64,000 nt of DNA from Argyresthia goedartella. Its lineage: Eukaryota > Arthropoda > Insecta > Lepidoptera > Argyresthiidae. The DNA lies in the NCBI GenBank assembly GCA_949825045.1, contig OX463822.1, positions 377,001 to 441,000 on the forward strand, read 5' to 3'. The translations under genes were made by a program, and so were the position numbers. The notes beneath the pieces are model-generated. The model worked only from the letters and a program-made list of their open reading frames with translations, was not told the DNA's origin and searched no databases. Positions 43,901-60,313 of this stretch are shown in pieces (position 1 is the stretch's first letter; each line of letters begins with the position of its first letter).

Positions 43901-45166
43901 CGCTCGACAAACTCAACCAGTTCTTCGACGGCGTGTCGGAGGCCGTCGCCGCCGGCACCAAGGAGAACGAGGTCGCTTACAGGTGACCCTGCACTTCTAT
44001 CTATCCTACCCACTATTGGATGATATCTATACTATTGTTACTTGACCCATACACTTATCGAATTCCTGTCGACTCTAGGGACCAATGACAAGGGAGTTAA
44101 ATTTGCTTAGATCCTGACATTTTTGCTTTCAATATTTCAGTACGGTATACCATGCGCATTTGCACACTGCAATCGTTGTATACTCCCTGGTTTACATTGT
44201 AAGCACGCAAATAGCCCGCATTCTCCCACGTTCATTATAAACCGGCCAAAGCGCGCTTACGTCATCCATCCGTCAACTGTCATATGTCATGTCAACCTCC
44301 AACAATAGAAATTGTTTATCCTCTACTTTACAGTATTTTACCACCTCTCGCGCTACGTTACAATTAAAGTAATAGATATTCCGAGAATAATTCTCAATCC
44401 AATTAAAATTTCGCAACAGATACTAAATGTCAATTTGACATCTCCACGCACTCTGCACTACCTCTTTCTCGTAGGAGCCGTGCGCGCGCTACCATGACGT
44501 CACTCATGAGGTCACAACGTTCACTCTGGTGAATTGTATGCGCATTATGAACCGACCTACAACGCGCTCACAACGCAAATAGCGCTCGTAAGCGCATCGT
44601 AAACCGCACCGTTAGTATCATGTCTTACAGACAAGTTCTAAGATCACCAGTACTTATTGTATTCATAACTAGTTGACTCGGTGAACTTCGTACTACCTAC
44701 ATTTGATTGTAAAATATGGCATATGGTACAATACCCTTCTAAGTCGCGTCGGCGAAAAATGACTAGTAAAATAGGTACCTAGTTTACACCTAGAAGTATT
44801 TTGTATTTAGATCTAAGTACGCTAAGGTAAAACTTTTTGGTGGACAATCAACAAAGAGGTTGAATGAATTACCTAAACTCTGATGTTTTATTCCGTAAAA
44901 TTCTGACAGCTATCATTTTTTGACATGTCAGAGATTACAAACCTTTTTGGCCGGGCAAATTTTTCAATTTCAATACGAGTCTGAACATCTGAGTTTTATT
45001 TGTTAGTGAATGTATAATTTTTTTAAGTGCGGCGCTCGTAATTAAAAGGGAATTTACGGCGAGTGATAATTACGTCCCTTTTCATCACAAACAGTAAAAA
45101 ACTACAAGTAAAGAAAACATATTTTTATTAAAATCTCTAATCATCATTAATACTAATATCACTTTC

Positions 45167-48200: not shown

Positions 48201-51200
48201 CAGACCTCGCTGTTAATAATTTTGTAATTATTTATTATTGCCTGCTTGTTAAATAAAAAAAAACATAATTGTATTAGTTGAGCACAACCTATTTTTAAAA
48301 GAGATCTAAAAATCAATCTGTGGGAGTTTCTACGCCCTTCTTCTCCCACAGTGGTCTAATGTAGATAAGAGGCAAAAAATGACGTTAAATATCTACAGTA
48401 ATAAAGTAAAAAAAAAAACAAGTAAGGGTAATAGGTATATTACTGTGTTTGATGACCATTGTAAGATGGTTTTAATTTGTAAAAGGCTTAACGATACGAC
48501 ACTACAATGAGGTATGTTATTAAAATGATCGAAAGTAAATAAAAAAAAGGATTATTATAAATTTAATGAACGAATAGAAATTGAATTTTTAATAATTCAA
48601 AATTGTTTTTTATGTATGTGCTTTACTTCCCCAAATATAGTGTAAAATAATTCAGATTAATTTGTAAAAGGTTGACGTCATTAACTATAATATTTTTAAA
48701 TTATTATTAGTTGACGTAAGATAATATTAATATCATATATGATTAAAAGTAGGTATTTACTTAAAAAAGAGAAGAAGGTTCTTTGTGTGAAAGTTGACAG
48801 AATATTGTTTGACAAAAGTGATGATGAATGATAGAATAGATTTATGAAGGCCACGAGAATCGATATAGCAAGTGATATTTCATTTTAATGAATAAAAAGA
48901 AGTATCATGAAAAGGTGATGATTTGTGTGATTATACCTACCTATATAAGTACGCAAAGGCTACGTAAAAGTTTAATTTTGTTATTTTTCTTCATTTAAGT
49001 AATTGAAAAAAACATATATTCAAAGTAAATTTTAGAAGTCATAATTTATCATAAAGTATAACTAATGGGGTATTATTGAAAAATATTCAGTTCCAGTTAT
49101 AACCAAAGGTGTAGAATTCAAACCATGATGCGTGTAACGTGATGCAATACAATACAGATAACAACAGAAAACCAAATTAGGAGACCACCTAGAAATTGTT
49201 TAGAAGTTGCCAAATTCGGAGCTTATCTTAGGATTCAATACGAAAATAATAAATCAGATTGGAGCGATTGGATTCCATATTGTTGTTTTTCATATAACAC
49301 AACGGTTCATACTGAGACAAAATACACTCCATATGAATTAGTTTTCGGAAATATTTGTAATTTGCCAAACAACTTGCAAACAACAACTGTAGATCCATTG
49401 TACAATCCCGACTCTTATCCTCTAGAACTAAAATACATAGTCAGGTCATAAGTTCTGTCACATGTGCAATATGAAATAATTTAGACATGTTTATTATCTA
49501 TGTAAACATTTATATAGCAAAATGAACTTAATAAAACATAGATTCTTATGGTAATAAAGTTTATTCAAAATGACCCCCGCGATTTTGAATACAGGCCTTT
49601 ATTCTGCGCGGCCAGTCGTCTATCGCAGCACGCACGAGGTCCATGTCAATATCGGCGGCTGCCTTAATCAAGGATGCCTTGAGTGACTCCAAATCAGGAT
49701 GAGGCTTTGAGCAGGCCTTTTCCTCCAAGTGTTGCCATATCTTGTAATCTAACAGACTCAAATCTGGACTGGAGGAGGGCCAGTCTTCGTGCCGGATGAA
49801 GTCGATTTCACGCGCCGCCAGCCAGTCTGTGTGCTTTTCGCTCTATGAGCTGGCGCAGAATCTTGTTGGAATACCCAGTGCCTGTTATTAAACATGGTAT
49901 GAGAAACAGGTTCCACAAGGTTCTTGAGGACTGTATTTTGATACACAACTGCATTCGTTTTTACGCCTTTCTCACAAAAATTTACCTCAGTTAAGCCCCA
50001 ATAAGAGACTCCCAACCAAACCATGAGCGAGGATGGAAAATGACCTCGTTGGACACGCGGAATACGGTTGCTCGCTTCTTCACTGCTGTGTGCGTACACC
50101 TTATCATTTTGTTTGTTGTAGCTCTCTTCCACGGTGAAAATTTTTTCATCCGAAAAAAGAATTTCCCGATGCTTTTTTCCCGCGTACCGCTTCAACAAAG
50201 CGCGGCATCTTTTCAGTCTCAGGTCCACTAAACGAGCGTCCAAACGATGTCCTGATTTTCTTCGATATGCCCTAAGCCCTAAGTCTTCTTTTAACACCCT
50301 TTCCACCGTGGTCCTGCTTAACCCCATCTGAAGGGCTAACAGTTTCTGCTTACGTATGGGATTTCTTTGAATTCGCGCCTTCACAGCTTTTATCACTGCT
50401 GGAGTCCTAACAGAGCGAGGGCGACCACTTCTTGACCTGTCATCTATACTAGAGTCTTCATTGTATTGTTTTATGGTACGATAAACGAATCTTTTGGTTA
50501 TATTCAAATTTTTCAGTAAGATGAAAATCTGAATTGGCGCGTAACCGCAACGATGCAACGCAATAACTGCGACACGGTCTTCTTTAAGTGTCCACTCCAT
50601 ATTTAAAAATGAGGAAAATTCTAAAAAGTACACATTTTTATTTTCATGGAAAATTCTAAATTCGAATTCAATAAACTTTTTTGTGGCCAGCGTTCTAAAT
50701 TCAAAAGTTTTTATTGTGTGACAGAACTTATGACCTGACTGTGTATAGACTTGAAAGAGCACAAGAAGATGCTAGAAGAAATTAGTTAAATAGGAAAGAA
50801 TTAAGAAAGCTAAATTTTGGCAAAAATGCTAATCCAGTAAAATATAATAGAGGAGATTTAGTTTTATTAAAAAATCAAGTTGGCAATAAGTTGGATAAAA
50901 TATATTTAGGACCTTATAAAGTTATTGAAGATTTGACCCCAAATGTAAAATTTATAGAGATGGTAAAAATTATGTAACAGATAAAAATAGCACTAAATTG
51001 TTTGAATAGGAAGTTTTACAGATGAGAAATGTATTATTTAAGTTAGATTAAAATGATTGTTTTAAGTTAATATTAGAATGAAATAATTAAGTGGTATAAT
51101 TAAGATTTAGTATTATTTGCCTTATTTTGTATTTAAAAAATATGTGACTAGTTAGTTCCACATTTTTTCAAAGGAACCCCGGGAATGAAAGGACTTAAAA

Positions 51201-54200
51201 GGGGAGATGAAGTGTAGAAATAACTTATTATTCATTTAATTGTAGCATGTCGCTACTGACTGCAACATTAGCGTAGAATAGCATAGTAGCACTAACTTAG
51301 ACATAAGTACTATGTACACTGAATTATTGTGTTCACTCTAACCTGGAATGTAGACCAATAAACTTGTCTACCTAACTACGTCTTTCGACTCTATTCACCA
51401 CCAACATCAGTAGCAGTTCCCATCATATTACAAATGTTTAAACATTTACATGTTCTCTTACGAGCATAAGAAACAAAAGTGTTTTTGTGGAACATTTAAG
51501 ATGTGCAAATAGGACATATTTGATTGTGCGATTAAATACTACCGAATTTAATTTTGTTTTTTATATTGCAATTGCAAAAAAATATGTTACAAATTCTTTT
51601 TTGTTATTATGTTTGCATTTAGGTGATTTTTTGATAGATTGATTAGATAATAATGAATAATTAAATTGTGTTTTCTTTATTAAAACTTATGGGCCCCAAA
51701 CAATAATAGGTGCTTAGTTCAAGTAAAGTTGGGTTTATGATTTTGTAGTTGGTTTACATTCAGATATCAGATAATCACTTAGTATAACGGTTTTAAATAA
51801 GTGGTTAAACAGTTTGCAAAATTTACTTTGTATTGTGGGTAAATTCTGAGGTGCAGTCAGTATTTTTTTTGCAGTTTTGATCAACAAATAGTGGATCATT
51901 TGTTTAGCGTTTAAATACATGCCTTTTATTTTTACTTGAACCTCCTCCGAACCGAGGACAATAAATGTAAATAGAAATTATCCAAACTGTTCAGGCTTTT
52001 TTAGAGATTGAGTAAGACTAACGTACAGCGATACGTTTTTATAAGTATATATATATATATTACCGAACACATTTGTGTTGCTTGGTTGCAGAGCCGCCTT
52101 TAGCAAGCAGGAGCTGAAACGAGTCTTGGCGCTCTATCCTAAAGAAGAAGGTGACTAAAAATTATTTATTTCGGGAAGTTGAGGCCGTTAAATTAAATTA
52201 CACAATAATTTAATTATGTTATGTAGCTCTTCTCGCAGGTTTCCCCTCTGTCAACAATTCATCTCTCCTATCCAATCATGGTTTACTGGAAGAAATATCT
52301 TGTAAGAGATAAGCTCGCCTTTGTGCATTATTTATGAGTTTTACATGTCTGTTATATGTAGTATAATTATGTAATTACAAACAGATTAAGCACCTCTACA
52401 AGAAGGTTCTAATAGTGTCGTTGTTTGCGTCAGTGTGCCGCTCGCTGCACGCGCTGCATCGCACCGTGGTGAAGCAGATGTCTCCGGGCAGCGCGCTGCT
52501 GCAGGTATGCCTTATCTGACACTATGTCGTTGTGTATGTTTGTGTGTCAGTGTGCCGCTCGCTGCACGCGCTGCATCGCACCGTGGTGAAGCAGATGTCT
52601 CCGGGCAGCGTGCTGCTGCAGGTATGCCTTATCTGACACTATGTCGTTGTGTGTGTGTGTGTGTGTCTGTCAGTGTGCCGCTCGCTGCACGCGCTGCATC
52701 GCACCGTGGTGAAGCAGATGTCTCCGGGCAGCGCGCTGCTGCAGGTATGCCTTATCTGACACTATGTCGTTGTGTGTGTGTGTGTGTGTCTGTCAGTGTG
52801 CCGCTCGCTGCACGCGCTGCATCGCACAGTGGTGAAGCAGATGTCTCCGGGCAGCGCGCTGCTGCAGGTATGCCTTATCTGACACTATGTCGTTGTGTGT
52901 GTATGTGTGTGTGTCAGTGTGCCGCTCGCTGCATGCGCTGTATCGCACCGTGGTGAAGCAGATGTCTCCGGGCAGCGCGCTGCTGCAGGTATGCCTTATC
53001 TGACACTATGTCGTTGTGTGTGTGCGTCAGGGTGCCTGTCGCTGCGTGCGCTGCATCGCACCGTGGTGAAGCAGATGTCTCCGGGCAGCGCGCTGCTGCA
53101 GGTATGCCTTATCTGACACTATGTCGTTGTGTGTGTGTGTGTGTGTGTCAGTGTGCCGCTCGCTGCACGCGCTGCATCGCACCGTGGTGAAGCAGATGTC
53201 TCCGGGCAGCGCGCTGCTGCAGGTATGCCTTATCTGACACTATGTCGTTGTGTGTGTATGTGTGTGTGTCAGTGTGCCGCTCGCTGCATGCGCTGTATCG
53301 CACCGTGGTGAAGCAGATGTCTCCGGGCAGCGCGCTGCTGCAGGTATGCCTTATCTGACACTATGTCGTTGTGTGTGTATGTGTGTGTGTCAGCGTGCCG
53401 CTCGCTGCATGCGCTGTATCGCACCGTGGTGAAGCAGATGTCTCCGGGCAGCGCGCTGTTGCAGGTATGCCTTATCTGACACTATGTCGTTGTGTGTGTG
53501 CGTTAGTGTGCCGCTCGCTGCATGCGCTGTATCGCACCGTAGTGAAGCAGATGTCTCCGGGCAGCGCGCTGCTGCAGGTATGCCTTATCTGACACTATGT
53601 CGTTGTGTGTATGTTCGTGTGCGAGTGTATGTGTGTGTCAGTGTGCCGCTCGCTGCATGCGCTGCATCGCACCGTGGTGAAGCAGATGTCTCCGGGCAGC
53701 GCGCTGCTGCAGGAGGTATGCCTTATCTGACACTATGTCGTTGTGTCTGTGTGTGTGTGTGTGTCAGTGTGCCGCTCGCTGCATGCGCTGCATTGCACCG
53801 TGGTGAAGCAGATGTCTCCGCCGTGGTGAAGCAGATGTCTCCGGACAGCGCGCTGCTGCAGGTATGCCTTATCTGACACTATGTCGTTGTGTGTGTGTGT
53901 GTGCTTCAGTGTGCCGGTCGCTGCACGCGCTGCTTCGCACCGTGGTGAAGCAGATGTCACCGGGCAGCGCGCTGCTGCAGGTATGCCTTATCTGACACTA
54001 TGTCGTTGTGTGTGTTTGTATCAGTGTGCCGGCTCGCTGCAATCGCTGCATTGCACCGTGGTGAAGCAGATGTCTCCCGGCAGCGCGCTGCTGCAGGTAT
54101 GCCTTATCTGACACTATGTCGTTGTGTGTGTGTGCGTCAGTGTGCCGGTTGCTACACGCGCTGCATCGTACCGTGGTGAAGCAGATGTCTCCGGGCAGCG

Positions 54201-57200
54201 CTCTGCTGCAGGTATGGCTTATATGACACTTTGTCGTTGTGTGTGTGTGCGTCAGTGTGCCGATCGCTGCACGCGCTGCATCGCACCGTGGTGAAGCAGA
54301 TGTCTCCGAGCAGCGCGCTGCTGCAGGTATGCCTTATCTGACACTATGTCGTTGTGTGTGTATCGTCAGTGTACCGCTCGCTGCATGCGCTGCATGGCAC
54401 CGTGGTGAAGCAGATGTCTCCGGGCAGCGCACTGCTGCAGGTATGCCTTATCTGACACTATGTCGTTGTGTGTGTGTGCGTCGGTGTGCCGGTCGCTGCA
54501 TTGCACCGTGGTGAAGCAGATGTCTCCGGGCAGCGCGCTGCTGCAGGTATGCGTTATCTCACACTATGTTATTGTGTGTGTGTGCGTCACTGTGCCGGTC
54601 GCTGCACGCACTGCATTGCATCGTGGTGAAGCAGATGTCTTGCTGATGTTTTATTTAATCAAAATCCGTACAGGCGTTAAAAGATCATTAGTTTTCTGAA
54701 TAATTTGTAACCTTGGGGTGGCCCCCAATTAGGGAGCGCGCATTAGTTTTCTAAATAATTTGTAACCATGGCGTGGCCCCCAACTAGGGAGCGCGCTGAT
54801 CACTATTCTAAGATCGAGCGTGAGACCTTAGTTGCGATCACACTTAATCCTACCTCGAAGGTAGTGGTAATTATTGTCAGTGCAAATACATCTACATAAT
54901 CGAAGGTTGATTTTGAAATAAGGATGGAACAATAACCTTCTATAGATTTATGATTGTTCGGTTTCCGAACTTTCGGCACAGAAATGAAGTAGGCGAAGCG
55001 AGAGAAGAACAAGCAATAAAGTTACCTATTTACTCTTAACTTTGAGACAGACTTTATTCTATTCAATTCAATCATTTATTAATTAAATTTACACATCATA
55101 AATGAAAAAAATATTTGCAATTTAAATTAAATCACATGAAATGAATGAAATTAAATTTAATTAAATGAACAGACATACAAACATTCCCAATCATAACTAA
55201 AAAATATAAAAATAATTAATGGTAAAAAAAACTTTTTTAAAACAAGTTTTTATGAAACGCTCTAAAAAGAAGAAAATAAACTTGAAATTGAATCTAACCT
55301 ATCAATTAATTACATCACACTATTTATAATGATATAAAATCTTCTGTCAATTCAATAACAAACTCTGTAAAAGAGATAGGTAACTACATCTACATAAGTA
55401 AATCTCGCAGCAAGTTTTTATATCATAATAGAGTGTGTGATGTTATTAATTGATAGGTTTGATTCAATTTAAAGTTTATTTTCTACTTTTTAGAGCGTTT
55501 AATGTTATTTTATGTTTTACTGAAATCAGAACTATCGATGACTGTTATTCTGATATAATAAATATTGATATCCGATATCATTGTAATACATATTACATAT
55601 ACGATTCGATTATTTTTACACATTGGTAAAAGTAGCACAGGAATATTTAATCTGTGGAGACCTTTCCGTAATCCTTCACAATCCGCCATTATAAAAAAAA
55701 AAGTTTTCGTTGCACGATTACTGTAAAAGTGGTGAAAGTATAATTAAAAGGATAAATTTATTTATTCTCTTTACAATTAACTTTAAAAAAATACAATCAA
55801 AATATTATCCAGACACGCTTCGTCAAAATGCATTTAAATATCAATTAGATATTATAAAATGACAAAACTTTAAATTAACCGAACACACGTGACATTTCCG
55901 TGGTAAAGGTTCCAATAACGCTGGCAGCATTTCCGCGCTGAACAGCCAGTGATATCCTCTGCATAAGAAATGCCCCAGAGCGGTAGTCGAAACCTTTGTC
56001 CCTAAGGCGGCGCGTCCCAACTCTCTTATAAACAGTTTACCCTGCGCCATGTATAATTCAAAGTATAGGTATTTCATTATTTTTAGAGCATATTATTTTA
56101 ATTTTCCTCATAGTCGGTGTGAAAAGTTGTATGTGTCACTAAGGAGAAAAATTATTTTCGTCATGGGCGTTAACGGTTGAATCCTTTGTTAGGATTCTAT
56201 CGTAGAATCCTTCGCTTCACTCTGGATTCAATGTACCGCCCTCGCAGTTAATACATAATTTTGCTCACTTGAGACACGAATAACTATTTCATTTGCGAAC
56301 ATGTTTCTTTGTGAAAGTTGTTCTTAATGATCGGTTATCATGACTCAAAATATGGTAAGCTAATTGAATGTCACCTTGTATATGTGCATGCTATCTATTG
56401 TATTTTATTTAGTTGAGTTTTTTTTTTATTTGGTATAAATTATTCAATATATTTTGTAAGTCATTTTCGTACGTATGTTTAGAGTTTTCTTGCGAACTAT
56501 GACTGTCCATCAAATACAAAATGTGTCACTCACACGCCAAACATGGTTGCTATGCTATGCAAAATACAACGTAATTCGTACGAGATAATATCCCTTTTAA
56601 TACAAAAATTGTATCGTCTATAGCCGACGATGTGGCGCCAGTGGCACGACTTTCAGTTGTCGGCCAGTGCTTTGACTGGGGCGGTCAAAAGGTTAAAGGT
56701 TGGCCTGACTTGGCCAATCGTTGTGGTGGTACAAACAGCAGGTGACCACGTCTTGGTCTCGATTTATTTAGGCCACCGTATATGTATCGTGCCCTAACTC
56801 TATCATTGCGTGTACTCGGTAGTTAAAGCTGGTCGCGTTTGTCGCAGGTGGTGTGGCGAGCCATGCAGGAGGAGTTCATACAGCAACACCAGGCATTGCA
56901 GGTAACAAGAAAGGATATACCCAGCAAGTGGTTTGATGTGGGCAACGCATGATGATGATGATGATATTTGCTATCTGTCTTTCTGTGGGGTTCGGTAGGG
57001 TTGATGCCGTCGAGGGATGAACCTCGACGGCATCAACGGTCTTATTGGCGAAGATTCGCGCAGTAATAGTCGCTCACTCTCTTCTTCGCAACGCAAACCT
57101 AAAACTCGATATTGTGGTCCTTGAGTAAAGTAAAAAGTGTATTTATTACTGTAGATATTTACATATATTTAGCAAACGTCATTTTATGCCCCTCTCTACA

Positions 57201-58899
57201 TTGCATTGGATGGGCGAAAAAAATCCCACAGATTGATTTTTAGATCTCTTTAAAAAATTGGTTGTGCTTAACAAATATTACAATATTATTTATTATAATT
57301 AATAAGCAGGAATAAATAATTACAATTTTTTTAATAGCAAGTTCTGCGTTGAGTTAGATTAACCCCATACAGTCCCGTCGTTGAAGTAATCTTGAACATT
57401 ATAATATCCCTTTTTTGACTACGTCGATTTTACATGGTGTTTAAATTACTCAAATGGCAATTTCAAAATCTCCAGAGGTATCTTATTGTAGTACAGAATG
57501 CACTGACCCCTGAAAGAATTGCTAACGTTCGCGAGTCTAATCCAGGGCGCAACTAGTCGGTGATTATTTTTTAGGTTAAGGACCGATTTAGCCTATCGGA
57601 TAGTGACACTGTCTACGAAGCTGACGGTCCTGGATTTGAATCCCAGTAAGGGCAAATTGTGTGATGAGCATGAATATGTTTCTTAGTCTTGAATGTTCTC
57701 TATGTGTTTACATAAGTATTTATCTCTATTAAATATATCGTCGTCATTGGACGACCTTTTATACGGACGACCGAATAAATATTAGAGGAAAATCTTACAC
57801 AAATCGAACTAGGCCCATATTAAGCTCAAAAAGGCTTGTGTTATGGGTCAATACCCAGGCTTGTGTTATGGGTCAATACCCAGGCTTGTGTTATGGGTCA
57901 ATACCCAGGCTTGTGTTATGGGTCAATACCCAGGCTTGTGTTATGGGTCAATACCCAGGCTTGTCTTATGGGTATTGACCCATAACACAAGCCTTTTCGA
58001 GCTTAATATGGGCCTAGTTCGATTTGTGTAAGATTGTCCTCTAATATTTATTATTATTATTATCCGTGTTTTGTCTGATGTTCCTAATAGCGTAAGCGGC
58101 GGAACTTAATCTACTAGCTAATTTATCTATATGGGCTCACCACTGCAATTTGCTATCAATGGTTATTCTAAGAAACTTCGTATCGTTTACTAATTCTAAC
58201 ATGTTGCTGTCTAGCACTAAACTTGTCTCAACTTGCCTGACATTTGGAAGAGAGAATACGACACATTTGTTTTGCCAGCGTGTAACGATAAACTATTAAC
58301 TGTGAACCAATTCAAGGTTAAAGACAATACACCATTAACATCATCAAAATCTTCTTGTCTTTCAATTTTGAAGACCAGTGAAGTATCATCACCAAACAAC
58401 ACTATGTCAGTTAATTTCTCCACCCTGAAAGGCAAATCGGTAATATGTACCAGGAATATGAAAGGGCCAAATATGGAAACTTGTGGAACGCCAATTTTTA
58501 CTACTGATCTATCAGGTTTAACGCCGTTGACTTCTGTCTTTTGGATTCTATTTCTTAAGTATAACCTTTGTAGATCCAACTCTTTGTTTTTCACTCCGTA
58601 ATGATTTAATTTAATTATTAGCGTATCATGATGAATACTGCCTTCGACAGATCGCATAAAACTCCGATAGCATCCTGTGCGGCCTCCCATGCAGAGTAAA
58701 TATGAGATATAAGGGTAATACCTGCATGGGTAAGGCATACAAAAAATAATGATCACTGTAATCATAAGCTAAGTTAATATATTCTTGTTTTGATGATCAG
58801 ACGCGCATCGCGGCGTGCTACCCAGGCGCGGGGCTGGCTCTGCCGCTCACCATTCAAGACATCCTCGAGGCATTCAGCGACATCGCCCGCGGGAACTGA
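10857..58899 (+). CDS. Sec3: Exocyst complex component 1 (Sec3), C-terminal part, ten coding positions
   Basis: Spliced exons: 10857-10937, 11157-11335, 14201-14408, 24646-24749, 24929-25045, 43836-43982, 52092-52150, one copy from the 52434-54440 array, 56848-56901 and 58801-58899. All have AG/GT boundaries and matching phases; together they give 373 codons including TGA. The product matches the C-terminal Sec3 domain, for example 'LDKLNQFFDGVSEAVAAG', 'AAFSKQELKRVLALYPKEE', 'VVWRAMQEEFIQQHQALQ' and 'IAACYPGAGLALPLTIQDIL'. Sec3 is the landmark subunit of the octameric exocyst, which tethers post-Golgi vesicles to the plasma membrane. The N-terminal PH-like and coiled-coil regions lie upstream of the window, since EXOC1 proteins are near 900 residues. 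Exons are strongly GC-rich and introns (up to 18.8 kb) are AT-rich and filled with transposons. Confidence 0.92.
11157..11335 (+). CDS. Sec3: Sec3 exon b (phase 0 to 2)
   Basis: The acceptor is 'ctgcag' and the donor 'gtgagt'. The exon starts with a low-complexity Gly/Ala/Arg linker, including a run of five Gly codons, then 'RRVLAELLPALETELVALV' and 'HMDKSDQ'. The split final codon is completed as Tyr by the next exon. The linker is GC-saturated and probably disordered; length variation here between species would be unsurprising. Confidence 0.88.
11420..11560 (+). repeat. Two-copy tandem duplication in a Sec3 intron
   Basis: A block of about 60 bp containing 'gtccgttagtagtttagaca' and 'ctgctcactg' occurs twice in a row. 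No coding content is seen. Confidence 0.7.
11660..11745 (+). mobile_element. Mariner 3' end fragment
   Basis: The sequence 'gatttttgtgtcattta' followed by 'ggcctgacctag' and a TA matches the 3' end of the old mariner at 41726-42806. Only this end remains. Confidence 0.6.
11801..12140. repeat. 43-bp minisatellite, 8 copies
   Basis: Eight head-to-tail 43-bp units contain 'tattgacatggagtacac', the palindrome GGATGCATCC and 'atagcggatatg'. Variants are few (single-base changes in units 4 and 6), pointing to recent expansion or homogenisation. It lies in the intron between Sec3 exons b and c. Confidence 0.95.
12240..12480 (+). mobile_element. LINE 3' UTR fragment
   Basis: Same family as the 3' UTR at 991-1240 but in + orientation: 'cacaaaggcctactacaaaa', 'acaagacaccgacatctg' and an ending of 'gaataaaaatg' plus a short 'tgaactgaactgaa' tail. 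It is dead on arrival, with no coding sequence. Confidence 0.75.
12481..13229. other. Intron sequence, nothing recognised
   Basis: AT-rich intron between Sec3 exons b and c. I see no exon, RNA gene or clear repeat boundary. Confidence 0.4.
13230..13986. mobile_element. Foldback element with about 235-bp inverted arms
   Basis: The left arm (13230-13467) reads 'tctacacacgtatcataaac', then 'ttactgcgtacaaaaacc', 'tctgaaaaattacacattat' and 'tttcgaacgccgacg'. The right arm (13752-13986) is its reverse complement with scattered differences. The spacer holds two more palindromes, at about 13623-13680 (bounded by CTCGAG) and 13692-13738. No transposase is encoded, so it is a non-autonomous DNA element or foldback. 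Confidence 0.8.
14201..14408 (+). CDS. Sec3: Sec3 exon c (phase 2 to 0)
   Basis: The acceptor is 'ccccag' and the donor 'gtactg'. The first base completes the Tyr codon begun in exon b. The 69 further codons give 'MRALACISRRVLAPGEGGAA', an Ala/Gly-rich loop, 'HERVEGMQDAVRHAAKRSRA' and 'GIYPFLQ'. Nearly all third positions are G or C, including long CG-rich runs, in contrast with the flanking AT-rich intron. Confidence 0.9.
14577..14816 (+). pseudogene. LINE C-terminal fragment
   Basis: The + strand encodes 'VKTIPIVISSTGVIPYTLNK', a Leu-rich helix and 'TSIFLQKATIMN', a motif order seen near the C-terminus of several insect LINE ORFs. No RT core is attached. Confidence 0.5.
14815..15080 (-). 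mobile_element. SINE-related copy
   Basis: The motifs 'tattagaggacaatc', 'aggcttgtgttatgggt' and 'ttcatgctcatcacaca' appear in the same order, inverted, as in the tRNA-like SINE at 57579-57850. The tRNA-like head would lie near 15030-15075 and is eroded. Confidence 0.55.
15081..16300. other. Intron sequence, nothing recognised
   Basis: AT-rich DNA in the exon c to d intron. A short GC-richer patch at 15840-15960 has no coding signature. A TG-rich run at 16308-16380 precedes the LINE 3' end. Confidence 0.4.
17456..18974 (-). mobile_element. Second LINE nested in the first, itself interrupted
   Basis: The 3' end is at 'tcaaagtcaaagtac'; the C-terminal ORF (18079-17708) has 'FIFENIMYVRKNLTKF' and 'SFKGQCILYYNKIPLEIL'. 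The upstream part (18954-18711) has 'LQWGPHI'-type sequence and 'VMSYGILLWGKAADIQT'. The two parts are separated by a 661-bp TTAA-flanked element. Related copies of the same 3' region are at 47860-48412 (+) and 57126-57578 (-). Confidence 0.7.
18050..18710. mobile_element. piggyBac-like MITE, TTAA-flanked
   Basis: The 661-bp insert is bounded by TTAA on both sides (18046-18049 and 18711-18714). Its ends are perfect 8-bp inverted repeats CCTCTCCG ... CGGAGAGG, followed by weaker similarity with an 'ACCC' motif. It interrupts a LINE frame. TTAA target duplication is diagnostic of the piggyBac superfamily. No transposase is encoded. A repeated 'cgtgtcggtacg' motif lies near the right end. Confidence 0.75.
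20701..22390. other. Intron sequence with one perfect hairpin
   Basis: Mostly AT-rich intron. A CG-richer patch lies at 20750-20830. At about 21687-21736 a 13-bp perfect stem (caaattgactcgc / gcgagtcaatttg) flanks a loop of about 23 nt. No genes recognised. Confidence 0.45.
22400..22560 (+). mobile_element. LINE fragment
   Basis: The + strand carries 'ccattgatagcaaattg', 'gtggggac' and 'ttaagttctgcggctaac', the sense version of the post-RT region seen on the minus strand at 18840-18965 and 58080-58160. Confidence 0.65.
22561..22980. mobile_element. Possible hAT element end
   Basis: The sequence 'caggcgtgggcaac' at 22562 matches the common hAT terminal motif CAGNGGTGGGCAA-type. I found no matching opposite terminus, so this is a solo or truncated end. 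The rest of the stretch is unrecognised. Confidence 0.3.
23130..23605. repeat. Dispersed lepidopteran repeat pair in inverted arrangement
   Basis: One copy runs from 'agggttccgtacccgaagg' through a (GTCC)n run (23189-23230) and 'gttgaaattttcacag'. It is followed by a palindrome: 'accggtcaagtgcgag' near 23327 to 'gcacttgaccggt' near 23598, with arms that include 'gcgcacgaagg' and 'gtaccaccgtt'. The same repeat occurs at 25300 and 28517. Confidence 0.75.
23937..24522 (+). repeat. 45-bp minisatellite, 13 copies, open in frame
   Basis: Thirteen nearly identical 45-bp units ('cgccttgatccaccttccat' ... 'aaccgggtgtcctac') lie in the intron just upstream of Sec3 exon d. Because 45 is a multiple of 3 the array is open in more than one frame; one frame would give a 15-residue repeat 'RLDPPSMCPSNRVSY'. 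There is no start, splice or conservation evidence that it is translated. Differences: one tac/tcc change and one ccacg change. Confidence 0.95.
24646..24749 (+). CDS. Sec3: Sec3 exon d (phase 0 to 2)
   Basis: The acceptor is 'gtcag' and the donor 'gtgagt'. Encodes 'EFEELTVACEAMFSRGGRRA', then 'DVERWYVALADAML' and the first two bases of an Arg codon. This follows exon c ('YPFLQ') as the Phe-Glu-Glu helix of Sec3. Confidence 0.92.
24929..25045 (+). CDS. Sec3: Sec3 exon e (phase 2 to 2)
   Basis: The acceptor is 'gctgcag' and the donor 'gtatac'. Encodes 'TVGSASHPRTPRAVLHMENY' then 'HRLAAILAALRLPATDAK'. The Met-Glu-Asn-Tyr/Phe-His pattern is typical of the Sec3 C-terminal domain. The next intron is 18.8 kb. 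Confidence 0.92.
25300..25620 (+). repeat. Dispersed lepidopteran repeat copy
   Basis: Starts 'accggccaagtgcgag' and continues through 'gcgcacgaagggttccg', 'ttacaaagttattgg', 'gggagccctcttaaat' and 'ggcaacagaaatacatc', ending near 'ctatcatgg'. It has the same module order as the copies at 23130-23605 and 28517-31475. Confidence 0.7.
25621..26270. other. Intron sequence, nothing recognised
   Basis: No gene, RNA or clear repeat boundary seen. Confidence 0.35.
26486..26781. mobile_element. MITE with about 29-bp inverted repeats and 9-bp target duplication
   Basis: The 296-bp element begins 'tagagtctggcaaacgaaag' and ends in its near-perfect reverse complement ('ctttcgtttgccaaactcta'). Both flanks read 'acttataac' (26477-26485 and 26782-26790), a 9-bp direct duplication. 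The interior is itself partly palindromic around 'cggaagcgttacagc'. A 9-bp duplication suggests a Mutator-like or related transposase source; nothing is encoded here. Confidence 0.85.
26791..27740 (-). mobile_element. Degraded Jockey-like LINE fragment
   Basis: Minus-strand frames at 27665-27354 ('SFFADDLKLYRVI' with FADD, 'EIRDLGIVFDKKLSLISHI') and 27353-27159 ('LVRSSLEYCSSIWFPHY') are the RT palm end and the post-RT region. A shorter piece at 27024-26830 follows. The RT motif upstream of FADD is lost past 27740. The MITE at 26486-26781 probably sits in its 3' UTR. Confidence 0.65.
28221..28241. repeat. (TA)n microsatellite
   Basis: About ten TA units in AT-rich intron DNA; otherwise nothing recognised between 27741 and 28516. 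Confidence 0.8.
28628..29937 (+). mobile_element. DD37D mariner, copy 1
   Basis: The 1310-bp element has inverted termini 'catagtcaggtcataag' / 'cttatgacctgactatg' and is flanked by TA (28626-28627, 29938-29939). It carries an apparently intact transposase (28771-29811). Two related copies lie at 29960-31260 and 49436-50743. Confidence 0.92.
28771..29811 (+). CDS. Mariner transposase (DD37D), intact
   Basis: A 346-residue ORF from the ATG at 28771. It has an N-terminal HTH region, a 'SRSGRPRSVRTP' linker (GRPR-like) before the second HTH, and the catalytic domain. The aspartates are in 'ILFSDEKIF' (D151), 'WVFQQDSAPAH' (D247) and 'SPDLSPLDYKIW' (D285). The last two are separated by 37 residues, the DD37D (maT-like) signature. 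The enzyme would catalyse cut-and-paste transposition at TA. No stop or frameshift is seen and the length fits the family, so it may be functional, though activity is untested. An in-frame GTG further upstream (28738) is less likely to be the start. Confidence 0.9.
   Translation: MEWTLKEDRVAVIALHRCGYASIQIFDLLKNLNVTKSFVYRTIKRYNEDSSVADRSRSGRPRSVRTPAVIKAVKARIQRNPIRKQKLLSLQMGLSRTTVKRVLNEDLGLRAYRRKTGPRLDARLMDLRLKRCRALLKRYARKKHREILFSDEKIFTVEESYNKQNDEVYAHSSEEASNRIPRVQRGHFPSSLMVWLGVSYWGLTEVHFCEKGVKTNAVVYQNTVLKNLVEPVSHTMLNNRHWVFQQDSAPAHRAKSTQDWLAASEIDFIRHEDWPSSSPDLSPLDYKIWQHLEEKACSKPHPDLESLKASLIKAAADIDMDLVRAAIDDWPRRIKACIQNRGGHFE
29960..31260 (+). mobile_element. DD37D mariner, copy 2
   Basis: The 1301-bp copy is separated from copy 1 by a short (TA)n run. 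Termini are 'cacagtcaggtcataag' and 'cttatgacctgactatg', with TA on both sides. Sequence is nearly identical to copy 1 except for a small deletion near the transposase stop. Confidence 0.92.
30103..31215 (+). CDS. Mariner transposase, altered C-terminus
   Basis: From the ATG at 30103, all three catalytic aspartates are kept ('ILFSDEKFF', 'WVFQQDSAPAH', 'SPDLSPLDYKIW'). Near 31126 the copy 1 sequence 'cgggggtcattttgaat' is replaced by a shorter 'cgcgcgaataaac', which removes the usual stop. The ORF reads on to 31215 and adds about 25 unrelated residues rich in Ile and Tyr. Whether the extension affects function cannot be told. Copy 2 also has Trp in place of Arg in the GRPR linker region. Confidence 0.85.
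   Translation: MEWTLKEDRVAVIALHRCGYAPIQIFDLLKNLNITKRFVYRTIKRYNEDSSVDDWSRSGRPRSVRTPAVIKAVKARIQRNPIRKQKLLALQMGLSRTTVERVLKEDLGLRAYRRKSGHRLDARLMDLRLKRCRALLKRYAGKKHREILFSDEKFFTVEESYNKQNDKVYAHSSEEASNRIPRVQRGHFPSSLMVWLGVSYWGLTEVHFCEKGVKTNAVVYQITVLKNLVEPVSHTMFNNRHWVFQQDSAPAHRAKSTQYWLAAREIDFIRHEDWPSTSPDLSPLDYKIWQHLEEKACSKPHPDLESLKASLIKAAADIDMDLVRAAIDDWPRRIKAGIQNRARINFITIRIYVLLRSFCYINVYINNKHV
31480..32095. other. Intron sequence, nothing recognised
   Basis: No exon or clear repeat end. A hairpin-like 'ccaaataatattaagcaata' stretch lies near 31880. Confidence 0.35.
32096..32128 (+). mobile_element. Probable left end of an old mariner, cut by the LTR element
   Basis: The sequence 'taggtagtttagtatgattt' then 'ttgtcac' resembles the reverse complement of the 3' terminus near 42806 ('ggcaaaattaatggcccgac'). 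It would be the 5' terminus of the mariner whose body resumes at 41726, on the other side of the LTR retrotransposon. Similarity is partial. Confidence 0.4.
32129..34349 (+). repeat. 5' LTR (2221 bp)
   Basis: Begins TGTAATGGTACACGAG and ends GCCGGTACA. An 87-codon ORF opens at the ATG at 32133, near the left end; there is no evidence that it is expressed. A TATA box and insect initiator lie near position 650-685 of the LTR. An inverted repeat 'catagttcggtattt' / 'atcgaactatg' sits near 33635. Confidence 0.92.
32778..32816 (+). promoter_or_regulatory. LTR core promoter
   Basis: TATAAATA at 32778-32785 is followed by TCAGT at 32810-32814, an arthropod initiator about 34 nt downstream. It would start transcription near 32812, leaving a long leader of about 1.75 kb before gag. 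The same pair recurs in the 3' LTR near 40154-40190. Confidence 0.65.
34564..35619 (+). CDS. Retrotransposon Gag
   Basis: A 351-residue ORF from ATG. The middle (about residues 85-235) fits the retrotransposon Gag capsid-like domain, with 'DSWRTYSDFEKDFREVFWG', 'QSMDEFFASQLNSIYEL' and 'LRHLERNVDGG'. There is no CCHC zinc knuckle. The C-terminus instead has an Arg-Gly stretch near residues 300-312 ('GRGYFRGRGRQ') that could bind RNA. The frame ends at a TAG preceded by a slippery heptamer, where -1 shifting would enter pol. Confidence 0.9.
   Translation: MAGRRRKTDSRVAQNSLSHTSEMASGQVTQLLSEIVNRLDSLERGSSTSNTSRTSDRQTDRQELETFEQSVEERQSCIVKMTQKLPTFDGRSSENPMIFLRDLKAYIKVSGDSSRALIWATDSLVGIAKVRMSIYRDSWRTYSDFEKDFREVFWGDNEQELIKQRFLTAKFDSKKGQSMDEFFASQLNSIYELTIPFTDTEKINTIFRQLPRDIQVAFFARKETMTIRDAVEFLRHLERNVDGGLNAIHGSEPMNTNNVRRDSYMRGQYRAMRVNTLRYNAISRSNNYNAVTKARNEFGTRGRGYFRGRGRQPQPSFKAIGFQRGNDSSGDTLAGQSSSDRNNAISQNSKN
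35610..35643 (+). promoter_or_regulatory. Gag-Pol -1 ribosomal frameshift site
   Basis: The heptamer A AAA AAC (35610-35616) lies in the correct phase just before the gag TAG (35617-35619). A -1 slip enters exactly the pol frame, open from CTA onward. Ten nt after the heptamer, GCGCG (35627-35631) can pair with CGCGC (35639-35643) around a 7-nt loop, a plausible stimulatory hairpin. Confidence 0.85.
35619..37748 (+). CDS. Pol: protease, reverse transcriptase, RNase H
   Basis: Read by -1 shift from gag. Domains in order: an aspartic protease with 'LIDSGSEISVISRRVYEE' (Asp near residue 113); an RT with 'GVIDIKDAYFSIPLSDES', 'NVLPQGLKTSVGSFSRAM' and the catalytic 'NFVDDLAIL' (FVDD, Asp 449-450); and an RNase H with 'YVQCDASAIGIGGYVY' (Asp near 597) and 'TSEQEMYAVIYTLKRFEI'. 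Order and motifs fit Ty3/Gypsy. The frame ends early at 37748; the continuation lies in another frame, so a probable 1-nt deletion separates it from integrase. Confidence 0.9.
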   Translation: MDSRGSFALRYLLRFGWTADRIGKKHRLYDLCNLDSNVGVNEFIQLLAHKAHGYAVCLDEKSRSNCRDRNDRRLHTIFRDDDSTECGRELCSTLTLPEIDVRIGNIVVRSLIDSGSEISVISRRVYEEVCRQLGKPTEIPIPSLRITGAFGVSKEKVDKLVTLPLTIGECVIDTPMLVLTRVPKDLILGFDFIQQTRASLMCEGNKRLIIRSAGRMCEIPLGTSPNQDFCCCTMEVQNQDTCRNMIEEYVNNSSIPVEHKTKLLPVLNKHAELFSDRIGRTNKYIHEIKMRDETPFVKRSYPIPFAYRDKVTKRLEEMEFIGIISRQSTDFSSPLTCTLKKSGEVRILLDARQLNMGMVGEVETTPLMSEILQSGRRINYIGVIDIKDAYFSIPLSDESKRYTGFVYQGRSYVYNVLPQGLKTSVGSFSRAMDLILGPEVRSYCLNFVDDLAILTEGDFEQHLSQVDTVLSKLKDAGFTCKLKKCEFAQKKVKLLGHILSTQGLQMDPDKIETLKLYPSPRTVRQLRAFLGFINYFRRFIKNFGTLTQPLYNLLRSGVKFVWSAQMQSAFGEIKNQFSEKIILNQPLAGKTYYVQCDASAIGIGGYVYQLDDSGQERIIGFCSQAFKGAQTRWATSEQEMYAVIYTLKRFEIYLRGEKVIIRTDHKSLTFIKSWTLLGARVTRWIMFLEQCDYDIEFVRGTLIIKLPTR
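37735..39082 (+). pseudogene. Pol continuation: integrase (out of frame)
   Basis: The frame open to 39082 holds the end of RNase H/linker ('DNQIADTLSRQ') and an integrase. The integrase has an N-terminal HHCC zinc domain (His pair in 'HIHEEIGHYG', Cys pair in 'SCDICQ') and a catalytic core with Asp in 'FSDLYGPL' (38258), Asp in 'ITDSGPQF' (38432) and Glu in 'NSVERVNRE' (38537), the last two with 34 residues between. A C-terminal basic domain ends 'YKGPYVISAVVYPNCYTL' region. All key residues are kept, but the frame differs from RT by one base and no slippery heptamer is evident at the junction, so this copy is probably inactive. Confidence 0.85.
39505..41725 (+). repeat. 3' LTR (2221 bp)
   Basis: Same length as the 5' LTR and almost identical to it. 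An A-rich stretch with C interruptions lies upstream at 39168-39232. Confidence 0.92.
41726..42806 (+). mobile_element. Old mariner relative, disrupted
   Basis: A decayed mariner of a family distinct from the copies at 28.6 and 30 kb. It keeps a start-like 'aaaaatggagtttacgca', 'WLGVSYSGPTEV', 'WIFQQDSAQAHMAKST' and 'RHEDWPSSR', but has stops, deletions and a rearranged third-Asp region. The 3' end 'atggcccgacctag' is followed by TA. The LTR retrotransposon inserted near its 5' end. A second 3' end of this family is at 11660-11745. Confidence 0.75.
42807..43835. other. Intron sequence with a dispersed repeat module
   Basis: The block 43090-43175 ('tggcgccagtggcacgactt', 'tcagttgtcgg', 'actggggcgg') recurs at 56625-56705. 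Otherwise nothing recognised before exon f. Confidence 0.5.
43836..43982 (+). CDS. Sec3: Sec3 exon f (phase 2 to 2)
   Basis: The acceptor is 'tcgcag' and the donor 'gtgacc'. Encodes 'VEAQSRYKESLRAYVASSFG', 'RPLDKLNQFFDGVSEAVAAG' and 'TKENEVAY', strongly Sec3-like (the Leu-Asn-x-Phe-Phe-x-Gly-Val core). The last two bases join exon g to make Arg. Confidence 0.95.
43983..44874. other. Intron sequence, nothing recognised
   Basis: Locally CG-richer at 44200-44620, with repeated 'acgcaaatag' and 'gcgctcgtaagcgc' motifs, but no exon. Confidence 0.35.
44875..46245 (-). mobile_element. DNA transposon remnant with 34-bp inverted repeats
   Basis: Termini 'aaactctgatgttttattcc' (44875 onward) and the reverse complement ending 46245 match at about 32 of 34 positions and continue 'gtaraattctgaca'. 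The 1371-bp interior has a short minus-strand ORF starting 'MEPQPGPSREAAPS' near 45379 and, in another frame, an acidic Asp-rich tail encoded by a (TCA)n run at 45165-45210. No catalytic core is recognised. The superfamily is not determined and no clear target duplication is seen. Confidence 0.7.
47103..47339 (+). CDS. Short leader ORF of LTR element
   Basis: About 78 codons in the 5' internal region, with 'SSSWEKYEFQDMP' and an Ala-rich tail. A related segment ('RRSWEMYGSQDVLT') occurs at the same place in the element at 60314. I do not recognise a function; it could be a Gag N-terminal relic. Confidence 0.35.
   Translation: MQAAGCKFEREQLSSSWEKYEFQDMPAPARAATYVENHATMACAMRDILRRKFSTFLLSVHLINLSGRCCLNCFTVER
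47860..48412 (+). mobile_element. LINE 3' fragment
   Basis: The + strand encodes 'SKFIFENIMYVRRNLTTF' and 'NSFKGQCILYYNKIPLEIL', then a 3' UTR ending 'acagtaataaag' with an A-rich tail. It matches the family at 17456-18974 and 57126-57578. Confidence 0.75.
49190..49432 (+). pseudogene. Gypsy integrase C-terminal fragment (upstream half)
   Basis: Reads 'WSDWIPYCCFSYNTTVHTET' and 'YTPYELVFGNI', a typical Ty3/Gypsy integrase C-terminal region, up to 'SYPLELKY', where the mariner begins. The downstream half resumes at 50746. Confidence 0.8.
49436..50743 (-). mobile_element. DD37D mariner, copy 3, nested
   Basis: The 1308-bp element, TA-flanked (49434-49435, 50744-50745), has termini matching copies 1 and 2. 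It interrupts the Gypsy integrase remnant. The transposase (ATG near 50600) is open to about 49830, then a single missing A in 'gcacacagactgg' (copy 1 has 'gcacacaagactgg') shifts the frame. The rest, including the third Asp, continues in the next frame to 49561. Confidence 0.92.
49561..50602 (-). pseudogene. Mariner transposase, one frameshift
   Basis: Same protein as in copies 1 and 2: GRPR linker, 'ILFSDEKIF' and 'WVFQQDSAPAH' intact. A 1-nt deletion follows the second catalytic Asp by about a dozen codons, so the third Asp ('LLDYKIWQHL') is out of frame. Not expected to be active. Confidence 0.88.
50746..51010 (+). pseudogene. Gypsy integrase C-terminal fragment (downstream half)
   Basis: Continues 'RLERAQEDARRN', a stop, then 'PVKYNRGDLVLLKNQVGNKL' and 'YLGPYKVIEDLTPN', the SH3-like tail of a Gypsy integrase. 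Stops and a frame change make it inactive. Confidence 0.75.
51433..52091. other. Intron before Sec3 exon g
   Basis: AT-rich, with a (TA)n run at about 52050-52060. The acceptor 'cttggttgcag' ends at 52091. Confidence 0.5.
52092..52150 (+). CDS. Sec3: Sec3 exon g (phase 2 to 1)
   Basis: 59 nt encoding Arg (split), then 'AAFSKQELKRVLALYPKEE'. The donor is 'gtgact'. It ends in phase 1, so the next exon must supply two bases first; every copy of the following array begins TG (or CG/GG), which fits. Confidence 0.93.
52434..52504 (+). CDS. Sec3: Sec3 exon h, first copy (phase 1 to 0)
   Basis: 71 nt that complete a Val codon and then encode 'CRSLHALHRTVVKQMSPGSA' and 'LLQ', leading directly into 'VVWRAMQEEF' of exon i. 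The exon fills exactly the gap of 24 residues that the family has at this place. The upstream intron (52151-52433, 283 nt) has a branch-like 'ttctaat' about 25 nt before the AG. This copy differs from the others only in its upstream flank and so may be the original 5' boundary. Which copy is used in mRNA cannot be told from DNA. Confidence 0.9.
52434..54640 (+). repeat. Sec3: Sec3 exon h amplified about 19-fold as a tandem exon-intron array
   Basis: Exon copies (start-end): 52434-52504, 52551-52621, 52674-52744, 52797-52867, 52918-52988, 53031-53101, 53152-53222, 53273-53343, 53394-53464, 53507-53577, 53642-53715, 53768-53861, 53910-53980, 54025-54096, 54141-54211, 54256-54326, 54370-54440, 54485-54546, 54591-54640. 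Copies 1-17 keep AG before and GT after. Copy 11 is 3 nt longer (extra GAG). Copy 12 has a 23-nt internal duplication. Copy 14 has one extra base. Copy 18 has lost its acceptor AG and 9 nt. Copy 19 lacks acceptor and donor. Spacers are 42-64 nt, start 'gtatgccttatctgacac' and end in a TG run plus 'cag'. The unit is about 113-123 bp. Confidence 0.96.
54641..55254. other. Intron with a two-copy repeat
   Basis: Two tandem blocks at 54685-54800 share 'taatttgtaacc', 'gtggccccca' and 'agggagcgcgc'. Otherwise AT-rich, nothing recognised. Confidence 0.5.
55255..55500. mobile_element. Foldback MITE with about 85-bp arms
   Basis: The left arm 'aaacgctctaaaaag' ... 'aacctatcaattaatta' (55255-55340) is the imperfect reverse complement of 'taattgataggttt' ... 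'ctttttagagcgttt' (55415-55500). No coding content. Confidence 0.75.
55501..56847. other. Intron sequence with a dispersed repeat module
   Basis: A module at 56625-56705 matches 43090-43175. A minus-strand stretch at 55841-56077 is open for 78 codons but shows no recognisable domain. The acceptor for exon i is 'tcgcag'. Confidence 0.4.
56848..56901 (+). CDS. Sec3: Sec3 exon i (phase 0 to 0)
   Basis: 54 nt encoding 'VVWRAMQEEFIQQHQALQ'; the donor is 'gtaaca'. The Val-Val-Trp and Glu-Glu-Phe pattern is conserved in Sec3. Confidence 0.95.
57126..57578 (-). mobile_element. LINE 3' fragment
   Basis: Minus-strand copy of the family at 17456-18974, recognised by 'tttattactgtagatattta', 'agattgatttttagatctc' and 'aatggcaatttcaaaatctc'. 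The coding frame is decayed. Confidence 0.7.
57579..57850 (+). mobile_element. tRNA-derived SINE
   Basis: The head 'accgatttagcctatcgg' has an A-box-like 'tagcctatcgg', and 'ggtcctggatttgaatccc' is B-box-like (compare GGTTCGANTCC). The body continues 'gtgatgagcatgaatatg', 'tgtgtttacataagtattta' and 'attagaggaaaatc' to the tail 'aggcttgtgttatgggt'. The same body, inverted, is at 14815-15080. Confidence 0.65.
57833..57972 (+). repeat. 25-bp tandem repeat, five full copies
   Basis: Units 'ggcttgtgttatgggtcaat' plus 'accca' repeat head to tail. The array is then followed by an inverted copy of the SINE tail (57973-58060), so the whole stretch 57765-58060 can fold into a long hairpin. Confidence 0.92.
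58061..58770 (-). pseudogene. LINE RT fragment
   Basis: Minus strand, same family as the LINE at 991-5275: 'GVPQVSIFGPFIFLVHITDL' and 'VLFGDDTSLVFKI' (FGDD in place of FADD). Post-RT sequence reads toward 58080. It ends 30 bp before Sec3 exon j. Confidence 0.7.
58801..58899 (+). CDS. Sec3: Sec3 exon j, C-terminus and stop
   Basis: The acceptor is 'tgatgatcag'. Encodes 'TRIAACYPGAGLALPLTIQD' then 'ILEAFSDIARGN' and TGA at 58897-58899. The Cys-Tyr-Pro-Gly and Thr-Ile-Gln-Asp-Ile-Leu motifs are characteristic of Sec3 C-termini. Confidence 0.96.
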   Translation, partial: TRIAACYPGAGLALPLTIQDILEAFSDIARGN

Positions 58900-59135
58900 G
58901 CGTGCTCACTAGCTTTCTCACATCGCTCGCGGGAACTAAGCGTGCACTCACTAGCATGCTCACATCGCTCACGGGGACTTAGCGTGCACTCACACTAGCA
59001 TGCTCACATCGTTCGCTCGAACTGAGAGTTAATCATTAACATGCTCACATCGCTCGCTGGAACTGAGCGTGACTCACTAGCATGCTCACATCGCTCGCTG
59101 GAACTGAGCGTGACTCACTAGCACTGCTGCTCACT
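58880..59135 (+). repeat. About 40-bp tandem repeat seeded by the last Sec3 codons
   Basis: Six diverged units of 39-45 bp share 'catcgctcgcgggaactgag', 'cgtg', 'actcactagc' and 'atgctca'. The first unit contains the real end of the coding region (Asp-Ile-Ala-Arg-Gly-Asn-stop); the rest lie in the 3' UTR. Confidence 0.88.
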
Positions 59136-59676: not shown

Positions 59677-60213
59677 TTAATCCAGGGTCTTGGGGGGAGA
59701 AAAGTTCAGGTAGACCAGGCCGGATGTCTTCGCCTGCAACCGATAAAACACAATGCATATTGCAGGAAAAAAAGCAAGGATTCAATGAAAGAGCATCAGG
59801 TCATTTAATAGTTTTGCAGTCCTTTTGGGAGAGAGATAAGATGTGGTCTTCCAACCACATTTAATAAATATGATGATGAGGAGAATTAATGCTTATTGGT
59901 TGTTAATTTATAATATCATATCTTGAGCCAAAACAAATGACTTCTTTGCAACAAAGTAGCAACTGAGCACATACAATTAACTATTCAGCAGCCACCAAAG
60001 TTTTTGTTTATCAGTTCTAATATTAGAGAGAACAAGAACGTAAAGAACTCACCACAACAAGGGAGAAGGCAGTGAAAACAATTCCAAATGCCAGGGTGGC
60101 ATTGTAGCGCTTGTTGTTGGCATCATACTGCGCCTGCCACGAGCCCTTGGGCACGGGCAGCTCGTCCATGGATGCTGGCTTGAAATGGCTATCACCAGCG
60201 TGGTAGCGACGCA
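59677..60213 (-). CDS. prag01-like (deltamethrin-resistance family) small membrane protein, C-terminal exons
   Basis: Two minus-strand exons, 60213-60053 and 59733-59677, join with AG/GT sites and matching phase (0). They encode 'RRYHAGDSHFKPASMDELPV', 'PKGSWQAQYDANNKRYNATL', 'AFGIVFTAFSLVV' and then 'AKTSGLVYLNFSPPKTLD'. The Leu-Pro-Val-Pro-x-Gly-Ser-Trp motif, one membrane helix (about 18 residues) and a Tyr-Leu-Asn-x-x-Pro-Pro tail fit the short insect Deltameth_res/prag01 family, thought to be mitochondrial. The first exon (phase 1, with the start and probable targeting sequence) lies upstream and was not found before 64000. A 3.4-kb LTR element sits in that intron about 100 bp from the acceptor. 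The family assignment is from memory. Confidence 0.7.
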
Positions 60214-60313
60214 CTGTAAATAAAAATAAAGTAGGTTAACTACAAGCTCTTTGTTTCGAGTTTGCCGCCACCTCGCTTGGTGCTCACCTTTATGCTTAGC
60301 GGTCTGGTAAGTG

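Follow-up and report, generated by a model that had tools for sequence, protein, structure and literature searches.

An internal coding exon of the gene for the exocyst subunit Sec3 (EXOC1) is repeated in tandem in a 64,000-nucleotide stretch of the genome of the lepidopteran Argyresthia goedartella (contig OX463822.1, hereafter the window). At positions 52434-54640 of the forward strand, a script parse identified 19 head-to-tail units, each consisting of a 71-nt exon and an intron of 42-64 nt. Tandem Repeats Finder (TRF) reported a single array at 52422-54640, with a period of 121 bp, 18.5 copies and a score of 2891. Both splice dinucleotides are intact in 17 of the 19 copies, AG preceding copies 1-17 and GT following copies 1-18. 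A preliminary description of this DNA had proposed a minisatellite of about 19 exon copies with mostly intact splice dinucleotides, 17 of them flanked by both AG and GT, and these counts were recovered. The size of the array far exceeds chance expectation. In our favoured reading of the sequence, Sec3 is a live gene and the array a minisatellite that carries one of its coding exons.

Structure of the array

Tandem exon duplication, defined by neighbouring homologous exons that agree in length and phase, is reflected in the 14 of 19 copies that are exactly 71 nt long and in the 15 of 17 that are in phase. The local tandem units with traces of unequal exchange are those of a minisatellite. Copy 1 (52434-52504) encodes the peptide LCRSLHALHRTVVKQMSPGSALLQ, which is identical to the array consensus, and is the sole copy with a CTAAT site upstream. 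It is followed by inter-copy intron 1 (52505-52550 in the script parse), which is 46 nt long and contains a CTGAC motif with its A at nt 15. All ten of copies 2-11 (52551-53715) have AG and GT and an open frame as the sole exon; copy 11 is 74 nt long, with three additional bases. Copy 12 (53768-53861) has 94 nt, with an internal 23-bp duplication and an in-frame stop, and copy 14 (54025-54096) has 72 nt, with one extra base that breaks the frame when the copy is used alone but leaves it open in 15 two-copy combinations. Copy 18, which has 62 nt, a 9-nt deletion and the acceptor CGG, and copy 19, a 50-nt stub with the acceptor CAC and no donor, form the dead end of the array (54485-54640). A palindrome, GCAGCGCGCTGC, lies at 52488-52499 near the exon donor and recurs at the same position in several other copies; the copies could pair mutually.

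The host gene

From its match to the Pfam family PF20654 (Sec3_C-term; cut-off 23.7 bits), the host gene is Sec3/EXOC1, the exocyst subunit to which the exon had been assigned beforehand. A nine-exon model from e1 to j, using copy 1, scores 130.1 bits and stays in one frame, with all phases fitting and no stop before the terminal TGA. The model starts at 14201, exons farther upstream lying outside it. Its exons, all on the forward strand, are e1 (14201-14408), e2 (24646-24749), e3 (24929-25045), e4 (43836-43982), e5 (52092-52150), the candidate exon e6 (52239-52301; 63 nt, phase 1 to 1), copy 1, exon i (56848-56901), which is the downstream partner of the array, and the last coding exon j (58801-58899), which terminates in TGA. 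The array exon links e6 (phase 1) precisely to exon i (phase 0), in agreement with the in-phase fit between neighbouring exons that had been claimed.

The array exon lies within the family profile and belongs in the protein. Joined to exons i and j alone, it gives 29.4 bits, with residues 5-51 aligned to profile positions 302-355, and residues 5-24 of the array peptide fall inside this match. The exon had been called constitutive; its place in the profile speaks for this, the basis being the profile and not RNA. The C-terminus including e6 scores 83.7 bits. Omission of e6 leaves the phase unchanged and raises the score of this shorter model to 103.5 bits (+19.8), in one stretch up to the profile end; e6 may be a cassette or no exon at all. 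Forced removal of the array exon with e6 kept gives 76.3 bits, against 103.5 bits for copy 1 without e6, a contrast that is confounded as both exons differ.

The assembly consists of 1,108,636,262 bases in 89 contigs. A PF20654 profile search reported a single place in it, exon e4 (two candidates scored), and this locus is the sole match for the initial 967 bases of the array. Both searches score best candidates only, and the evidence that Sec3 is a single gene in the assembly is good, not complete. It is hardly credible that the array is an inconsequential feature of a dying Sec3 copy: the nine exons are in phase and stop-free to the end, and no further PF20654 place was reported. Among solved structures, the 163-aa C-terminus had no Sec3 match up to E 10 and two weak matches to an oxidase (E 1.4 and 1.5).

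Reading frame and copy inclusion

As the exon is 71 nt long and lies between phase 1 and phase 0, inclusion of a single copy preserves the frame. The outcomes were enumerated for the 17 copies with AG and GT, in sets of one to four copies plus the full skip. A single copy keeps the Sec3 frame in 15 of 17 cases, copies 12 and 14 being those that break it. The 17 copies described earlier as flanked by both AG and GT do have them, but 15, not 17, are in frame as the sole exon. Skipping every copy breaks the frame. Splices of two copies are open in 15 of 136 cases, every one of which involves the frameshifted copy 14, and none of the 680 three-copy or 2380 four-copy splices is open. The frame does not tolerate double inclusion in the other 121 pairs, as for mutually exclusive exons, and in these the stop precedes the last junction by 86-158 nt. 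In the 12 open pairs that have copy 14 in second place, it is read as CAGSLQSLHCTVVKQMSPGSALLQ, which amounts to a near-duplication in frame; in the 3 that have it in first place, it is read in another frame. If copy 1 is read on past its donor, the first inter-copy intron gives V-C-L-I-stop, the TGA being located within the CTGAC motif. Judged from the sequence, exactly one copy must enter the mRNA to hold the frame, the copy-14 pairs being the sole exception among sets of up to four copies.

Frame breakage on this scale could also have a function. If several copies were frequently included, decay of the frame-broken mRNA would cut the output of Sec3, perhaps in a regulated manner, and the array would act as a poison element. 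The 121 broken pairs and the breakage of all triples and quadruples are in line with this. In addition, TG-rich tracts precede the acceptors and could bind a TDP-43-like repressor; repression of this kind at TG tracts is exemplified by CFTR exon 9. Selection should act against a purely deleterious load, however, and a poison array is considered improbable.

Branch-like sites and splice geometry

The best branch-like motif is CTGAC in 16 of the 18 inter-copy introns, with its A at nt 15 after the donor and 27-49 nt before the next exon; the intron preceding copy 16 lacks CTGAC. A CTTAT motif is found even closer to the donor in 17 of the 18. Upstream of copy 1 is a CTAAT motif resembling a branch site (52409-52413, forward strand), the second A of which precedes the exon boundary by 21 nt. 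The repeat unit starts downstream of CTAAT, so that this putative branch element was not amplified with it and is confined to copy 1. Copies 2-19 have no upstream CTAAT site, and copy 1 is the only one with a normally placed branch-like site. The copies had been described as working-looking, which holds for the AG and GT of 17 of them, but they are unequal: copies 2-19 lack CTAAT, and in 16 of 18 introns the best branch candidate follows the donor by 15 nt.

A steric minimum of ~50 nt between donor and branch point has been proposed, and the mapped distant branch points of OGDH lie at 25-41 nt, according to PMC7969005. Exclusion through distant branch points presupposes a branch point within ~50 nt of the upstream donor; a candidate motif stands at 15 nt in 16 of 18 introns. 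As 15 nt is far below the proposed limit, adjacent copies should not splice together; by analogy with other animals and genes, neighbouring copies may exclude each other sterically. The length of the inter-copy introns is not prohibitive by itself, as the smallest intron reported in a cDNA mapping of the silkworm is 34 bp (PMC3755909). In copies 1-17, pyrimidines occupy 7-9 of the 16 positions of the acceptor tract, and copy 1, with 9, is no better than several others.

Divergence among copies

Substitutions were counted in 15 copies over 71 nt, excluding copies 12, 14, 18 and 19, whose exons are not comparable over this length, and trimming copy 11 to its first 71 nt. There are 22 distinct substitutions, and the copies also differ by indels and by the length of (TG)n, so that the array is not one identical unit repeated. 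The differences between copies noted in the preliminary description are thus substantiated. They argue against an assembly error that would have inflated a much lower real copy number, as does an assembly of 89 pieces for 1.1 Gb with an array of just 2.2 kb; such an error is very unlikely.

The exon sequence is common to copies 1, 3 and 7. Units 2 and 3 are separated by an edit distance of 1, as are units 4 and 7. Copies 4, 7 and 8 are followed by the same intron sequence, and a single base distinguishes the introns that follow copies 5 and 9. This pattern fits growth of the array by block duplication through unequal exchange. The mean distance between units is 10.2 for units 1-11 and 18.9 for units 12-18; the insertion in copy 12 inflates the latter value. 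Decay is evident at the 3′ end: copies 1-11 are all intact (11/11), against 4 of 8 among copies 12-19 (Fisher P 0.018). Youth of the 5′ copies may be part of the cause.

Half of the exonic changes (11/22) are silent, where 27-36% was expected (two-sided P 0.066; one-sided P 0.017-0.12 depending on the mutation model). Selection on the donor-branch block was also considered. The block varies in 3 of 405 cells and the exon in 33 of 1065 (P 0.007), but the difference fades to P 0.11 when variable sites are compared and to P 0.36 when CpG sites are left out (3/25 and 12/53), so that stronger conservation of the block is not demonstrated.

Selection of a single copy

The array raises the question of how the splicing machinery selects a single copy. 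We tentatively favour, with a confidence just short of even, that copy 1 is the working default exon and that the later copies are shielded decoys. Binding of U1 to a donor and of U2 to the site 15 nt downstream would exclude each other, so that each inter-copy intron could serve as a donor or as an acceptor. If U1 usually wins, the donor of each copy would shield the acceptor of the next, the later copies would be silent decoys, and copy 1 would be joined to exon i across 4343 nt. Splicing errors would be removed as frameshifted mRNA, and new units would carry their own shield, allowing the copy number to drift almost freely. Copy 1 would be favoured because only its branch-like site is not beside the donor of another copy; its sequence also equals the consensus.

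Exclusion between neighbours leaves the joining of copy k to copy k+2 possible, and a strong U1 bias is therefore needed to obtain one defined copy. By arithmetic on our own model of the shield, with 16 introns and copies 1-17, exactly one defined copy would be found in 86% of the molecules, nearly always copy 1, if U1 wins at 99% per site. The proportion would be 21% at 90% and 0.03% at 50%. A bias towards U2 would instead favour the distal copies, but copy 17 carries two changes (C2Y and R10G) and CTGAC is missing from the intron before copy 16.

Several points weigh against shielded decoys. In alpha-tropomyosin, the exon whose branch site is near the upstream donor is the default one. Proximity alone therefore need not silence an acceptor; the spacing here is much shorter. 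The lean of the exonic changes towards silence weakly suggests that later copies are read and that several are translated, and conservation of the donor-branch block does not demonstrate selection on the shield.

The main rival, which we regard as unlikely but serious, is that the 15 intact copies, or at least several of them, serve as redundant mutually exclusive exons, one per mRNA, giving nearly identical proteins. The 15 copies that are in frame with AG and GT would permit this, and the silent lean would be in keeping with it. There are ten distinct intact single-copy peptides. Nine of these, all but that of copy 9, were scored without e6, together with one form combining copies 1 and 14; the scores are 96.3-104.8 bits, and no scored variant looks ruinous. 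No working copy stands out by its PF20654 score. Redundant exclusive use would nevertheless leave the joining of copy k to k+2 unblocked, and without a strong bias the model is dominated by multi-copy, frame-broken products.

Nor is redundant use helped by RNA pairing of the docking-selector type, in which a single element in the flank would be complementary to the units; such pairing is described for Dscam1 in PMC6071210 and is unsupported for the Sec3 array. The best duplex, between the exon and 55923-56015 (one of six query-target pairings), was not equalled by shuffled targets (0/60 and 0/300). It was matched by 11 of 300 shuffled exons, however, and its target ranks 22 of 615 across the window, with a residual of -2.3 standard deviations after GC content is accounted for; the candidate was dropped on these grounds. 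Among the 25 longest of the 96 inverted-repeat pairs of 51900-57000, none longer than 19 nt joins the array and its flank. The intron after the array contains a 92-nt inverted repeat (55252-55343 and 55412-55503) that is 89% complementary.

Extended to the history of the array, the reading of copy 1 with shielded decoys would describe a self-shielding exon minisatellite. A donor 15 nt before the next branch site would silence the following copy, the 71-nt exon would act as a frame counter that discards mistakes, and an essential exon could expand and contract like neutral DNA, its copies being spares should copy 1 or its donor be lost. This extended proposal is less likely than not.

Comparison with known exon arrays

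Tandem exon duplication with mutually exclusive splicing is already well known. Exons 4a/4b of OGDH, alpha-tropomyosin and alpha-actinin resemble the Sec3 array in having a branch-like site near the upstream donor, under the proposed ~50 nt (PMC7969005). OGDH has a pair of exons with branch points mapped 25-41 nt from the donor, whereas the Sec3 array has 19 near-identical copies with a candidate motif at 15 nt. The exon arrays of insect Dscam1 are likewise long tandem clusters from which one copy enters each mRNA; their copies diversify the protein, according to PMC9013439, whereas the peptides of the Sec3 array are nearly identical. The same paper describes recurrent duplication of the initial exon of Drosophila hydra, with nine homologous exons used singly. 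The hydra exons are initial and lie in the untranslated region (UTR), in contrast to the internal coding exon of Sec3. A tandem unit of exon plus intron, for which unequal crossing over was proposed, is reported in PMC6564038 and is the same type of unit as in the Sec3 array. In that system the 90 bp are a multiple of three and copies can be added in frame, which the 71 nt of the Sec3 exon cannot. Within genes, coding or intronic minisatellites of the variable number tandem repeat (VNTR) class are similar in their tandem units and decayed edge. The Sec3 array is unlike them in that each of its units contains a complete exon flanked by splice sites of its own.

The literature matches listed, consisting of titles and the beginnings of abstracts with most subscription papers outside their scope, include no Sec3 exon array and no internal coding exon turned minisatellite. 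Among the matches listed there is also no housekeeping gene with an internal coding exon amplified to a comparable extent as near-identical copies.

The array is a natural experiment on counting by the spliceosome: it presents 17 near-identical acceptor-donor pairs, and nearly every outcome other than one copy is marked by a frameshift. It offers a test of steric exclusion beyond exon pairs, and it would show a route by which an internal coding exon can turn into a minisatellite while the gene, presumably an essential one, survives. Gene predictors should be used with caution here, as the array exon may be dropped or multiplied.

The wider window

A second exon-derived minisatellite of Sec3 lies at 58876-59128, where a unit of ~41 bp repeats the last codons and the stop region. 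It has six copies including the genuine end and extends into the 3′ UTR. Further minisatellites in the Sec3 region have units of 43 bp (7.9 copies, 11800-12140), 45 bp (13.1 copies, 23934-24522) and 25 bp (5.7 copies, 57832-57973). Counting arrays with a unit of at least 15 bp and at least 4.5 copies, the 64-kb window contains 5, compared with 3 in a 200-kb sample of interior sequence made up of 20 chosen stretches, 16 on the same contig and 4 on two others (P 0.024; P 0.064 with the focal array removed). Four nearby 8-kb stretches contain 1 array. These counts are only suggestive of a minisatellite hot spot. On its contig, whose first 3000 bases read N, the window spans 377-441 kb.

On the reverse strand, a long open reading frame (ORF) with an HTH_29 domain occupies 49758-50771 and presumably encodes a transposase; similar-looking pieces occur near 28.9, 30.3 and 42 kb. 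Another reverse-strand ORF, at 60023-60235, contains a domain of the insect family Deltameth_res (deltamethrin resistance; PF16020, E 2.6e-16).

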